Part shown: piece by piece, positions 11,955-18,098 of the stretch
Layout: every line of letters begins with the position of its first letter
Position numbering within the stretch: the first letter of the stretch is position 1
Position numbers and translations under genes: made by a program
The notes under the pieces: model-generated
The model's database searches: none
Seen by the model: the letters and a program-made list of their open reading frames with translations, nothing else
What the model was told of the DNA's origin: nothing
NCBI RefSeq assembly: GCF_018141525.1
Contig: NZ_CP064655.1
Coordinates: 2,946,501-3,010,500, forward strand
Reading direction: 5' to 3'
Length of the DNA stretch: 64,000 nucleotides
From: Miltoncostaea marina
GTDB taxonomy: Bacteria; Actinomycetota; Thermoleophilia; Miltoncostaeales; Miltoncostaeaceae

Positions 11955-12614
11955 CTACAGGTGCTCGGCGAGCGCCTCCACGAGGAAGCGGGTGTGCGCC
12001 TGGAGCGTGGCCGCCTGGCCGATCCGGTTGACGGTCTCGGGGCCGGCCACGGCGTCGGGCCCGCCGCGGTCGATCTCGATCTGCTTCGCCCGCCGGTCCA
12101 TCGCGAAGATCGTGTCGGCGAGCTGCGTCTGGCGCTCGTTCATCCACGCCAGCACGTCGTCGGCGATCGGCGGCCGCCCCTCGCGCGCCTCGTCGAGCAG
12201 CCCGAGGAAGACCCGGGTCCAGGCGGCGATGCGCACCCGGCGCTCGAGCATCGGCTCGATGCCCGGGTCGCCCGCGGCGACCTCGCCGAACTGCAGGCCC
12301 ACCTCGAACGCGTGGGCCTCCCCCACCCGTCCCATCTGGGCGTCGACGTCCGCCTCGCGCCGGGCGAGCCGCGCCGGCAGCTCGCGCGCCAGGCGCTCCA
12401 GCGCCGGCGCCGCCGCGGGGGCGGCGTTGGCGGCGAGCGCCTCGGCCACGAGAGCCAGGTGGGCGCGCACCGCCGGGTCGCCCGCGGGCGCGAGGTCGTC
12501 CGACCCCGCGGCCTCGCGGGCGAGCAGCTCGGGCAGCCGGCCCGGCCGCGCCTGCATCCACGACAGCAGCCCGCGCGCCGTGGGGTGCGGGGCGCGGGCG
12601 GCCGGCCCGGCCAT
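11955..12614 (-). CDS. Conserved helical protein coupled to ETF-QO, unknown function
   Basis: 219 aa. The ATG overlaps the stop of the ETF-quinone oxidoreductase by one base (TGATG), so it is made from the same message. It is largely helical and charged, with no signal peptide or membrane segment: LLSWMQARPGRLPELLARE near the start, ARREADVDAQMGRVGEAHAFEVGL in the middle, VFLGLLDEAREGRPPIADDVLAWMNERQ later. No motif identifies an enzyme. Position suggests a role tied to ETF-QO function or assembly, which is inference only. Confidence 0.78.
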   Translation of the reverse strand: MAGPAARAPHPTARGLLSWMQARPGRLPELLAREAAGSDDLAPAGDPAVRAHLALVAEALAANAAPAAAPALERLARELPARLARREADVDAQMGRVGEAHAFEVGLQFGEVAAGDPGIEPMLERRVRIAAWTRVFLGLLDEAREGRPPIADDVLAWMNERQTQLADTIFAMDRRAKQIEIDRGGPDAVAGPETVNRIGQAATLQAHTRFLVEALAEHL

Positions 12615-14317
12615 CAGGTGATCGTGTACTCGGGCCCGCTGCCGCCCTCGGGCGGCGTCAGGCGGCCGCCCTTGGCGGTGATGGCGCCGCACTGGACGCA
12701 GTTGGACGGGTTGACGTGCACCGTCACCCGCCCGTCGCCGGCGCCGCGCGACTCCTCGTCGATCTCGTAGACCTTCGCCGGGCACATGTGCACCCAGGCG
12801 GTCGCGAGCTCGGCCGGCACGTCGCGCTGGATGCGGATGTGGTTGGGCTGGTCGTCGCGGGTGGCGTTGCCGCTGGCGAAGACGCTCGACAGCTTGTCGA
12901 ACAGGTACTCGCCGTCGGGCGCCGGGTAGCTCTTGTCGCGGTCGCCGATGAAGATCGGCTCGCGCACGTCGGGCTTGAACCGCACCGGCTTGCGCGGCGC
13001 GTGGCCGAACGAGCCCGTGGCCATGCCGTGCATCATCCCGCCGTAGACGAAGCCCTTCTGGAAGGCCGGCCGGATGTTGCGGACCTTCCAGAGGTCCTTC
13101 CAGATGGCGGAGTCGCGGACGGCCTTCGTGTAGCCCCACAGGCCCGTGGCGGTGGTGGCCTTGCCGGCCTTGAGCGCCTGGTAGATCTGCTCGCCCGCCA
13201 GGCGGCCGGAGTGGATCGCGTTGTGGACGCCCTTCAGGGCCATCATGTCCACGAAGCCCGCGCTGTCGCCGACCATCACGGCGCCCGGCACGTGGAAGCG
13301 GCTCGGCAGGCCGTAGAGGCCGCCGCCCGGGATGGTCTTGGCGCCCCAGGCCAGCCGCTTGCCGCCGGCGAGGATGTCGCGGACCATCGGGTGGGTCTTG
13401 AACTGCTGCAGGACGTCGTGCACCGACAGGGTGGCGTCGGCGTAGTCGAGGCCGACCACGTAGCCGATCGAGACCATGTCGTCGCCCATCGGGTAGATCC
13501 ACGAGCCGCCGTACTCGCGGTACTTCGTGCCCAGGCGCAGCGGCCAGCCGAGCGTGTGGATGACCTTCGTGAGCGGCTTCGGGACCTGCCAGACCTCCTT
13601 GACCCCGAGCTCCCAGATCTGGGTCGACTGGCGGTCCAGGTCGAAGTGGCGGCGCAGCACCCCGGTCAGGTGGCCGGGCGTGCCCTCGGCCAGCACGGTG
13701 ACCCGCGCGTGGACCTCGGCGCCGGGCTCGAAGGCGGAGAGCTCCTCGCCCTCCTTGCCCCGCCCCTTGTCGCCGGTGACGACGCCCATCACGCGGCCCT
13801 GGTCGAGGATGAGCTTCTGGCAGTCCGTCTCGGGCAGCATGAAGGCGCCGAGCTCCTCGGCCTGCTCGCTCATCCAGCGCGCGAGCTGCGACACGGAGAC
13901 GACCCAGTTGCCGTGGTTCTTCATCTGCGGCGGGGTCGGGATGCGGATCTTCGACTTCGGCCGCATGAAGTAGACCGACTCGCCGGTGACCTCGCCGTAG
14001 TGCGGGATGGAGGCCGCGTCGACGTCCGGGAACAGGTCGCGGATCGGACCGGGGCGCATGACCGCGCCCGACAGCAGGTGGGAGCCGGCCGTCTTGCCCT
14101 TCTCGGCCACCGCCACCGGCACCTCGCCGAGCTGCTCGGCGAGCTCGGGGTCCTCGCCGATGAGCTGACCCAGGCGCACGGCGGTCGCGAGGCCGCCCGG
14201 CCCCGCCCCGACGATCAGTACGCCGACGTCGATGCGCTCGTCCTCGGCCGCGGCGGGCGGGACGATGTAGTCGGACGGCTGGAAGGGCGGCGGGTAGTCG
14301 GCCGGGAGGACGCTCAT
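12614..14317 (-). CDS. Electron-transfer flavoprotein-ubiquinone oxidoreductase-like protein
   Basis: 567 aa from the ATG at 14317. FAD motif VGVLIVGAGPGGLATAV near residue 30, the ETF-QO hallmarks GSHLLSGAVM and GDSAGFVDMMALKGVHNAI, and a C-terminal ferredoxin-like part (AWVHMCPAKVYEI, then NPSNCVQCGAITAKGG, then TPPEGG). Family members carry four cysteines for a 4Fe-4S cluster (CP, then C-x2-C-x2-C). Here the last reads C-x2-C-x2-Ile, so one ligand is missing. The enzyme should pass electrons from ETF to the quinone pool at the membrane. No etfAB genes are in the window. Confidence 0.93.
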   Translation of the reverse strand: MSVLPADYPPPFQPSDYIVPPAAAEDERIDVGVLIVGAGPGGLATAVRLGQLIGEDPELAEQLGEVPVAVAEKGKTAGSHLLSGAVMRPGPIRDLFPDVDAASIPHYGEVTGESVYFMRPKSKIRIPTPPQMKNHGNWVVSVSQLARWMSEQAEELGAFMLPETDCQKLILDQGRVMGVVTGDKGRGKEGEELSAFEPGAEVHARVTVLAEGTPGHLTGVLRRHFDLDRQSTQIWELGVKEVWQVPKPLTKVIHTLGWPLRLGTKYREYGGSWIYPMGDDMVSIGYVVGLDYADATLSVHDVLQQFKTHPMVRDILAGGKRLAWGAKTIPGGGLYGLPSRFHVPGAVMVGDSAGFVDMMALKGVHNAIHSGRLAGEQIYQALKAGKATTATGLWGYTKAVRDSAIWKDLWKVRNIRPAFQKGFVYGGMMHGMATGSFGHAPRKPVRFKPDVREPIFIGDRDKSYPAPDGEYLFDKLSSVFASGNATRDDQPNHIRIQRDVPAELATAWVHMCPAKVYEIDEESRGAGDGRVTVHVNPSNCVQCGAITAKGGRLTPPEGGSGPEYTIT

Positions 14318-15157: not shown

Positions 15158-16564
15158 CTACAGCGAGATGGCGTCCCGCTGGCCGGCGACCTCGTTGGTC
15201 AGCTCCGTGACCACGGACTTGGCGTCGCCGAACACCATGGAGGTCTTCTCGTTGAAGAACAGCTCGTTCTCGATGCCGGCGAAGCCCGCGCGCATGGAGC
15301 GCTTGACCACGAAGATGGTCTGGGCCTGGTCGACGTTGAGGATCGGCATGCCGTAGATCGGGCTCGACGTGTCGTGACGGGCCGCCGGGTTGACGACGTC
15401 GTTGGCGCCGAGCACCAGGACCACGTCGGTCTGGGCGAAGTCCGAGTTGATCTCGTCCATGTCGAGCAGCTGGTCGTAGGGCACGTTGGCCTCGGCCAGC
15501 AGCACGTTCATGTGGCCGGGCATGCGCCCCGCGACCGGGTGGATCGCGAACTTCACGTCCACCCCTTGCTTCTCGAGCGCGTCGGCCAGCTCGCGCACCT
15601 TGTGCTGCGCCTGGGCCACCGCCATGCCGTAGCCGGGCACGATCACGACCGAGCCGGCGATCTTCATGAGGTCGGCCGCCTCGTCGACCATCGCGGTGCG
15701 GTACGTGCCCTGCTCGGCCCCGTCGCCGCCGGCGGTGGCGTCGGTCGCCCCGAACGCCCCGAACAGCACGTTCGTGAACGAGCGGTTCATGGCGCGGCAC
15801 ATGATGATCGACAGGATCAGGCCCGACGCGCCGTCGAGGGCGCCGGCCACGATGAGCAGCTTCGAGTCGAGCACGAAGCCCAGGGCCGCCGCCGACAGGC
15901 CGGCGTAGGAGTTGAGGAGGGCGATGACGGTCGGCATGTCGGCGCCGCCGATCGGGATGATCAGGAAGATCCCGAAGGCCAGGCCGAGGCCGACGACGAC
16001 CGGGATCGTCCAGTTCACGTCCGGGTCGGCCATCGTGTAGATCACGAGCGCCAGCGCCGCGCCGAGCACGGCGAAGTTCACCGCGTTCTGGCCGGGGTAG
16101 ACGATCGGCCGCTGCGGCAGCCACTCCTGCAGCTTGCCCGCCGCCATCAGCGAGCCGGTGAAGACCAGCATCCCGAGCGTGATCTCGATGCCGATCACCA
16201 GCAGGTCGAACTTCGAGTAGTGGCTGCGCTCGAGGTAGAAGTGCGCCACGCCGATGAGGCCGGCGGCGAGACCGCCGAACGCGTGCGAGAGCGCGATCCG
16301 CTGCGGCATGGCGGTCATCGGCACGAGCAGGCCGAGCGGCACGCCGATGGCCGACCCGATCAGCAGGGCGACGGCGATGAGCAGGTAGCCCTCGCCGTCG
16401 ATGTCCGGCCAGAAGAGGGTCGCGACGATCGCGATGCCGAAGCCGATCTCGCCGGCGAGCACGCCGCGGCGGGCCGTCGAGGCCTGGGACATCCACTTCA
16501 GCGAGAAGGCGAAGCCCAGGGCGGCGACGAGGTACGCGAGCTGGATCCAGTTCATGCGGTCCAT
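15158..16564 (-). CDS. pntB: NAD(P) transhydrogenase subunit beta
   Basis: 468 aa, usual length. The N-terminal half has about eight or nine membrane spans. The C-terminal NADP-binding domain III starts near residue 290 and shows the family GYGMAVAQAQHKV motif, HPVAGRMPGHMNVLLAEA and VLVLGANDVVNPAA. With the two alpha subunits it couples proton entry to hydride transfer from NADH to NADP+ in the cytoplasmic membrane. The start overlaps the pntA2 stop (TGATG). Confidence 0.97.
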   Translation of the reverse strand: MDRMNWIQLAYLVAALGFAFSLKWMSQASTARRGVLAGEIGFGIAIVATLFWPDIDGEGYLLIAVALLIGSAIGVPLGLLVPMTAMPQRIALSHAFGGLAAGLIGVAHFYLERSHYSKFDLLVIGIEITLGMLVFTGSLMAAGKLQEWLPQRPIVYPGQNAVNFAVLGAALALVIYTMADPDVNWTIPVVVGLGLAFGIFLIIPIGGADMPTVIALLNSYAGLSAAALGFVLDSKLLIVAGALDGASGLILSIIMCRAMNRSFTNVLFGAFGATDATAGGDGAEQGTYRTAMVDEAADLMKIAGSVVIVPGYGMAVAQAQHKVRELADALEKQGVDVKFAIHPVAGRMPGHMNVLLAEANVPYDQLLDMDEINSDFAQTDVVLVLGANDVVNPAARHDTSSPIYGMPILNVDQAQTIFVVKRSMRAGFAGIENELFFNEKTSMVFGDAKSVVTELTNEVAGQRDAISL

Positions 16565-16887
16565 CAGGCGGCTCCGTCCTCGGTCGCGACCGGCTTGCGC
16601 TCACGCGGCTTGAACATCTTGAGCATGCGGTCCGTGATGATGAACCCGCCGACCACGTTGATCGACGACGCGACCACGGCGATGAAGCCGAGCACCTGCG
16701 CGTACGTCGAGTGCCCCTGGCCCAGGATCACGATCGAGATCACCAGGGCGATCGCGGACAGCGCGTTGGTGAGCGCCATCAGCGGCGTGTGGAGCAGCTT
16801 CGGGATGCGGCGGATCACCTCGAAGCCCACGAACGCCGCGAGCGAGAAGATGAAGAGGTTGGTGATGATGATGTCGGTGCTGCTCAC
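16564..16887 (-). CDS. pntAB: NAD(P) transhydrogenase subunit alpha part 2 (membrane)
   Basis: 107 aa, three or four hydrophobic helices (IIITNLFIFSLAAFVGFEVI; LMALTNALSAIALVISIVIL; VLGFIAVVASSINVVGGFII). It is the separate membrane part of the split alpha subunit seen in Rhodospirillum-type transhydrogenases. Overlaps of a few bases with both neighbours show an ordered three-gene operon pntAA-pntAB-pntB. Confidence 0.96.
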   Translation of the reverse strand: MSSTDIIITNLFIFSLAAFVGFEVIRRIPKLLHTPLMALTNALSAIALVISIVILGQGHSTYAQVLGFIAVVASSINVVGGFIITDRMLKMFKPRERKPVATEDGAA

Positions 16888-18098
16888 GAGGTGACACCCT
16901 CCTCGGCGCCGAGGGCCGACTGGACCCGCTCGTTGACGATGCGGCCGTCCCGGCAGACCGTGGTCTGGTTGACGATGTCGTCGTCGCCCGGCGGCGCGAC
17001 GGCGCCGTCGGCGACGATCAGCGCCAGGAAGTTCGCGACGTTCTTCCCGTAGAGCTGGCTGGCGTGGAACGGCGCCTCGGACGGGACGTTGACCGGCCCG
17101 ATCACCTTCACGCCGTCCACGTCCACGGTCTCGCCGGGCCGGCTGGGCTCGACGTTGCCGCCCTGCTCGGCGGCGAGGTCCACGACCACCGAGCCGGGCG
17201 CCATCGCGCGCACCATGTCGTCGGTGATCAGCACCGGGGCCTTCGCGCCCTGCACCTGCGCCGTCGTGATGACGACGTCGGACTTGGCGACGACCGCGGT
17301 CATCAGCTCGCGCTGCTTCGCGAGCTGCTCGTCGGTGAGGGCCTTCGCGTAGGCCCCCGAGCCGGTGCCCTCCTGGCCGGTGTCGAGGTCGAACTCGACG
17401 AACTTGGCGCCGAGGCTCTTGACCTCCTCCTTGGCCGCCGCGCGCACGTCGTAGGCCTCGACGACCGCGCCCAGGCGGCGCGCGGTGGCGATGGCCGACA
17501 GGCCGGCGACGCCGGCGCCGACGACGAACACCCTCGCCGGCGCCATCGTGCCGGCCGCCGTGGTCATCAGCGGGAAGACCTTCGGCAGCGCGACGCCGGC
17601 CATCAGCACGGACTTGAAGCCCGCGATGTTGGCCTGGGAGCTCAGCACGTCCATCGCCTGCGCCCGCGTGGTGCGCGGCAGCAGCTCGAGGGAGTGCAGC
17701 GTCACGCCCTTGTCGGCGAGCGCCGCGGCCACCCGGGGCTGCGCGAACGGCGCCGCCATGCCCACGACGACCTGGCCGGCGTGGAGCTTGGCCAGGTCCG
17801 GGCTCGCCGGGTCGTTGGCGAGCACCCGCACGTACGCGACGACGTTCGCCGAGAGGGCGTCGTCGCGCGTGCCGATGGTGGCGCCCTTCTCCTCGTAGGC
17901 GGCGTCGGGGTAGCCGGCGGCGGCGCCCGCGCCCGACTCGACGACGACCGCGGCGCCCAGCTTCTGGAGCTGGGGCACGACCGCCGGGGTCAGCGCTACT
18001 CGCCGTTCGCCGTCGAGCGTCTCGGCGGGCACGCCGATCGTGAGCGGCGCGCGCGTGGCTTCAGCCCCGTTCGGGGCGGGGGGGGAGCTGGTCGACAC
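16884..18098 (-). CDS. pntAA: NAD(P) transhydrogenase subunit alpha part 1
   Basis: 404 aa from the GTG at 18098. This is the soluble NAD-binding domain I: IGVPAETLDGERRVALTPAVV near the start, Rossmann motif VFVVGAGVAGLSAIATARRLGA at about 175-195, and RQ-loop-type segments later. It is related to alanine dehydrogenase. It is the first gene of the operon; the promoter is about 30 bases upstream. The first 15 residues are a Ser/Pro-rich extension without a strong ribosome site. Confidence 0.95.
   Translation of the reverse strand: MSTSSPPAPNGAEATRAPLTIGVPAETLDGERRVALTPAVVPQLQKLGAAVVVESGAGAAAGYPDAAYEEKGATIGTRDDALSANVVAYVRVLANDPASPDLAKLHAGQVVVGMAAPFAQPRVAAALADKGVTLHSLELLPRTTRAQAMDVLSSQANIAGFKSVLMAGVALPKVFPLMTTAAGTMAPARVFVVGAGVAGLSAIATARRLGAVVEAYDVRAAAKEEVKSLGAKFVEFDLDTGQEGTGSGAYAKALTDEQLAKQRELMTAVVAKSDVVITTAQVQGAKAPVLITDDMVRAMAPGSVVVDLAAEQGGNVEPSRPGETVDVDGVKVIGPVNVPSEAPFHASQLYGKNVANFLALIVADGAVAPPGDDDIVNQTTVCRDGRIVNERVQSALGAEEGVTS

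Follow-up and report, generated by a model that had tools for sequence, protein, structure and literature searches.

ETF-quinone oxidoreductase (ETF-QO) carries the electrons of fat and amino-acid breakdown into the respiratory chain and is the textbook bridge from fatty-acid oxidation to the quinone pool. The canonical enzyme has a [4Fe-4S] cluster bound by four cysteines, arranged as CP followed by C-x2-C-x2-C, and to our knowledge this four-cysteine cluster has been treated as fixed. Among the other systems considered here, FixC and FixX are two separate chains, while mycobacterial EtfD is recognized by CCG domains together with membrane helices. The ETF-QO described below retains three of the four cysteines, with isoleucine at the place of the fourth, and thus departs from the canonical arrangement. 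A lineage in which three cysteines are kept and the loop is remodelled amounts to an experiment by nature on the requirements of the cluster.

The ETF-QO gene and its protein

The window, that is, the whole stretch of 64,000 nucleotides that was analysed, comes from a genome assembled as a single contig of 3.37 Mb and contains the ETF-QO gene P0001 (Table 1). Its reading frame is open, without an inner stop, and the C-terminus of the protein reads MCPAKVYE...NCVQCGAITAKGGRLTPPEGGSGPEYTIT. The quinone-binding domain PF21162 (ETFQO_UQ-bd; 92.6 bits, Pfam cut-off 27.7) and the Fe-S domain PF05187 (Fer4_ETF_QO; 45.8 bits, cut-off 24) were both recognized on the same chain, the rest of the Pfam profile consisting of two sub-threshold FAD-domain hits. 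The PF05187 score is weak when set against the 131–142 bits obtained for six four-cysteine proteins of the same class. The nearest solved structure is porcine ETF-QO (2gmh; E 1.7e-92, 34 % identity), with which the AlphaFold model of P0001 (mean pLDDT 80.3) could be aligned over the whole chain (Foldseek, TM 0.83/0.81, 579 columns). The protein is one chain of 567 residues rather than a FixC/FixX pair, and a Pfam search of that chain found no CCG domain of the kind that characterizes EtfD. Judged from its sequence, P0001 is the full-length ETF-QO of its cell, and the statement of the initial annotation that the remaining domains are conserved is borne out by the Pfam domains and the full-length match to 2gmh.

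Table 1. Features of the three-cysteine ETF-QO locus (positions are those of the window)
Feature	Positions	Strand	Remarks
ETF-QO gene P0001, three-cysteine type	12614..14317	minus	567 aa; ATG start, TGA stop
Neighbour gene, cysteine-free 219-aa protein	11955..12614	minus	ATGA overlap with the ETF-QO stop codon
Cys512 codon (CPA), kept putative cluster ligand	12782..12784	minus	Cys in 166/166 homologues
Cys540 codon, kept putative cluster ligand	12698..12700	minus	Cys in 166/166 homologues
Cys543 codon, kept putative cluster ligand	12689..12691	minus	Cys in 166/166 homologues
Ile546 codon (ATC), place of the fourth canonical Cys	12680..12682	minus	I 98, C 40, T 28 of 166
Remodelled, shortened loop, residues 539-564 (NCVQCGAITAKGGRLTPPEGGSGPEY)	12626..12703	minus	In A1, four columns fewer than the canonical loop

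Loss of the fourth cysteine and its spread

For comparison across homologues, 221 loci were collected, of which 196 yielded an ETF-QO extending to residue 540 (E ≤ 1e-30), and these were reduced to 166 non-redundant rows with P0001 included. FixC-only, ETF and CCG loci were left out, as were copies that are truncated or broken in frame (for example L048, L057, L093 and L150); L057 and L093 appear to be frame-broken in their C-terminal halves, perhaps through assembly errors. In both the alignment with 2gmh and the homologue alignment (A1), three canonical ligands coincide with C512, C540 and C543, and the fourth coincides with I546. The column of the fourth cysteine is occupied by isoleucine in 98 homologues, by threonine in the 28 of the Gemmatimonadota type and by cysteine in the remaining 40, namely 34 Pseudomonadota-side proteins and six from family f4 of the same class as P0001. 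Together, these alignments and counts confirm the initial claim of an ETF-QO with one Fe-S cysteine missing and isoleucine at the fourth place. P0001 has only one further cysteine, Cys166, and no cysteines besides C512, C540 and C543 are invariant in the three-cysteine groups (these three in 98/98 of the Ile type and 28/28 of the Thr type). No conserved cysteine elsewhere in the chain could act as a substitute, the next-best cysteine column reaching 48/98 in the Ile type and 21/28 in the Thr type.

The replacement extends across the class, as the initial annotation had proposed to check among relatives. At the DNA level, of 300 genomes from the class, 234 carry the motif NC[VIM]QCGAI and six a four-cysteine motif, these six all being of family f4 and devoid of the Ile motif. 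The remainder includes families f2 and f6, in which the Fe-S domain was matched weakly or not at all; in f6, the loci that were read encode the ferredoxin as a FixX-like chain of its own. The four-cysteine proteins of family f4 (L058-L063) are approximately 35–39 % identical to P0001 and were perhaps acquired separately. Some class members (G135, G628 and G632) carry two Ile-type motifs per genome, which points to a second ETF-QO copy or a mixed assembly.

In Gemmatimonadota, the Fe-S domain was matched in 80 of 121 genomes, and among the matches listed (30 loci) 28 are of the Thr type (the truncated L150 included) and two, L132 and L133, of the Ile type. The 28 Thr rows of the 166-row set correspond to 27 of these listed loci plus L131. 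L132 and L133, from genomes drawn as Gemmatimonadota, cluster with the Ile type in the tree, which may reflect transfer, a misplaced contig or old inheritance. A plasmid search returned 440 records, all (440/440) below 60 % identity, and these were excluded from the counts; among the matches listed (40 of 440), all are presumably from Pseudomonadota.

The loss of the fourth cysteine is therefore real, clade-wide and far above chance. The initial annotation had considered that relatives might carry the cysteine and that the change might be a local sequencing error, yet the close relatives lack a cysteine at 546. With isoleucine in 98 non-redundant proteins, 234 of 300 genomes carrying the motif and an open frame, a sequencing error, frameshift or decayed gene has a vanishingly small probability and was ruled out. 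Because the loss is common to most relatives in the class and to relatives in a second phylum, it represents an inherited variant.

History of the loss

The Ile, Thr and Cys types are cleanly separated in the trees. A 45-row tree with a FixC outgroup joined the Ile and Thr types with a support of 96, whereas trees constrained to unite Thr with Cys or Ile with Cys were not rejected (p-AU 0.47 and 0.44, respectively), and the fork between the three types stayed unsettled in a 69-row tree. Both one loss and two losses are possible. Four cysteines were probably the ancestral state, since FixX-like outgroup ferredoxins keep CP + CxxCxxC in six of eight loci (the expression used missed L181 and L182).

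A remodelled loop under selection

The initial annotation had noticed the missing cysteine only, but in both three-cysteine groups the loss is accompanied by a change of the surrounding loop, which in A1 is four residues shorter than in the four-cysteine group. Position 545 is alanine in all 126 three-cysteine proteins and threonine in 36 of 40 canonical ones, while position 550 is glycine in 126/126 and aspartate in 40/40, respectively. In Rhodobacter ETF-QO, the threonine preceding the last cysteine is reportedly a second-shell residue, the loss of which lowers the cluster potential. Residues N484, T486, R487 and D488 are also common to both three-cysteine groups and absent from most canonical proteins, whereas position 542 follows lineage (His in 40/40 canonical, Gln in 97/98 Ile-type and Asp in 28/28 Thr-type proteins).

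Within the Ile type, the residues at positions 543-546 are fixed although their codons vary (four codons for G544, four for A545 and three, ATC, ATT and ATA, for I546), and the new loop is therefore under selection. The AlphaFold model gives no confident geometry for this loop, because pLDDT falls below 50 at residues 541-567; the loop of a four-cysteine Methylobacterium control, modelled with the same 21 sequences, is likewise below 50.

A three-cysteine cluster as the likely outcome

P0001 belongs to a lineage-wide variant of ETF-QO whose three remaining cysteines most probably bind either a [3Fe-4S] cluster or a [4Fe-4S] cluster with a solvent-ligated fourth iron, a reading to which a probability of roughly 0.6 may be assigned. 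In this variant the fourth cluster cysteine has been exchanged, for isoleucine in the Thermoleophilia type and for threonine in the Gemmatimonadota type, along with the surrounding loop. As proposed here, C512, C540 and C543 would hold the cluster in either form, a solvent ligand occupying the fourth iron in the [4Fe-4S] case, and the cluster would still have a part in electron transfer from ETF to FAD and to the quinone of the membrane, which is probably menaquinone.

This reading is favoured because of the invariance of the three cysteines, the likely necessity of the enzyme and the established precedents for three-cysteine clusters. The source genome has one pair of ETF-domain loci and one PF05187 locus, so the enzyme is probably needed. 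The four CCG-domain loci of that genome, read by eye in fetched stretches, look like lactate-, glycolate- or heterodisulfide-type loci and unlike EtfD, which speaks, suggestively and short of proof, against EtfD as an alternative exit. Given the single ETF pair, the single PF05187 locus and the lack of an EtfD-like CCG locus among those four, P0001 seems to be the only outlet for electrons from ETF.

With regard to precedents, the [3Fe-4S] centre of complex II is marked by Val or Ile at the place of a Cys, and the FrdB V207C exchange is said to turn this centre into a [4Fe-4S] cluster. Classical [3Fe-4S] ferredoxins have, as usually defined, lost the second Cys of CxxCxxC, whereas P0001 replaces the third, which counts against the proposal. 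Three-cysteine [4Fe-4S] clusters with water or an unknown fourth ligand are described for aconitase, RirA and RisR, and a ferredoxin with Cys3-Asp ligation is likewise established (PMC11138216). A further precedent comes from the homologous EtfX, in which the C29A variant still carried both clusters in approximately 40 % of the complex, an outcome put down to partial non-Cys ligation, but C29A/C33A, C61A and C61A/C64A gave no intact complex, which counts against the proposal (PMC10734219). Decisive details on redox properties or the [3Fe-4S] state were not found in the accessible portions of the open-licence literature, including the Thermus complex II paper (PMC3538594).

Other readings of the site

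A conventional [4Fe-4S] cluster, its fourth iron bound by a protein ligand other than cysteine, is an unlikely but tangible alternative to the solvent-ligated or [3Fe-4S] forms. It would fit the consistently polar position 547 (Ile type: T91, S4 and N3; Thr type: D28), the threonine at 546 in 28/28 Gemmatimonadota-type proteins and, as candidate ligands, the D488 and T486 shared by both three-cysteine groups and missing from most canonical proteins; moreover, Cys3-Asp ligation is known in Pyrococcus furiosus ferredoxin (PMC11138216). However, the Ile type has no strong ligand (C, H, D or E) at 544-551 and varies between T, S and N at 547, and the D547 of the Thr type also occurs in 40/40 canonical proteins, which already have four cysteines. 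A partner protein supplying the missing ligand in trans, which the initial annotation had raised for the coupled 219-aa protein, is very improbable. The 219-aa gene does overlap the ETF-QO stop codon, but its product, which matched no Pfam or NCBIfam family, is cysteine-free here and in every homologue found, and those homologues occur only beside ETF-QO genes of the window's own family, whereas the Ile type is class-wide. Since it is both cysteine-free and limited to that family, this protein cannot be a general source of the ligand, and a cysteine from it is excluded; a His or Asp from some other partner may be envisaged as a sub-case. The transhydrogenase genes pntAA, pntAB and pntB (15158-18098, minus strand) are found a short way upstream of the ETF-QO gene, and transhydrogenase genes adjoin ETF-QO in 2 of 26 named-genome loci, the extent of the flanks differing among loci.

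That the cluster has been lost altogether, with electrons passing directly from ETF to the ETF-QO FAD and the three cysteines serving otherwise, for example in a zinc site or a disulfide, appears quite improbable. One of four ligands is indeed missing and, as noted above, the Fer4_ETF_QO match is weak; nevertheless, the three cysteines, with their CPA and NCxxC context, are kept in 126/126 three-cysteine proteins from two phyla, whereas drift would be expected at a site no longer in use. Such strict invariance of the three cysteines disfavours the electron transfer without a cluster that the initial annotation had allowed for, and favours a retained three-cysteine cluster.

Beyond the retention of such a cluster, it is tentatively conceivable, though doubtful, that an ETF-QO lineage spanning two phyla exchanged its [4Fe-4S] entry cluster for a true [3Fe-4S] cluster and redesigned the loop, thereby tuning the delivery of ETF electrons to low-potential menaquinone. 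Actinobacteria generally use menaquinone, and six f4 genomes of the same class keep the four-cysteine type; for both reasons the link to menaquinone is not a strict one, and menaquinone as the strict cause was rejected.

Comparison with known systems

The ETF-QO family is known, but its class-wide three-cysteine form, which differs from the canonical [4Fe-4S] ETF-QO, is apparently undescribed, no published description having been found among the titles and abstract starts of the open-licence literature. Transfer of a 4Fe-4S annotation onto such proteins would be unsafe. Mycobacterial EtfD likewise passes ETF electrons to menaquinone and contains a [3Fe-4S] cluster of an unusual kind, but it is not an ETF-QO homologue (PMC13083937). 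It is distinguished by its membrane helices and CCG domains and by four cysteines that bind a linear [3Fe-4S] cluster. FixC (EtfCX, 7koe) is homologous to the flavin part of P0001, and FixX has the same CP + CxxCxxC arrangement as the Fe-S part of ETF-QO, but the two are separate chains and FixX mostly retains the complete set of cysteines. With the mitochondrial and proteobacterial enzyme, represented by porcine 2gmh, P0001 shares the full-length fold, the FAD and quinone-binding domains and the CPA and NCxxC cysteines, and differs by the replacement of the fourth Cys by Ile and of Thr545 by Ala and by a loop four residues shorter. The ETF-QO of the Gemmatimonadota type has the three-cysteine site, Ala545, Gly550 and the N484/T486/R487/D488 segment in common with P0001, and is set apart from it by Thr at 546, D542 in place of Q542 and a KATDV-x-GP loop.
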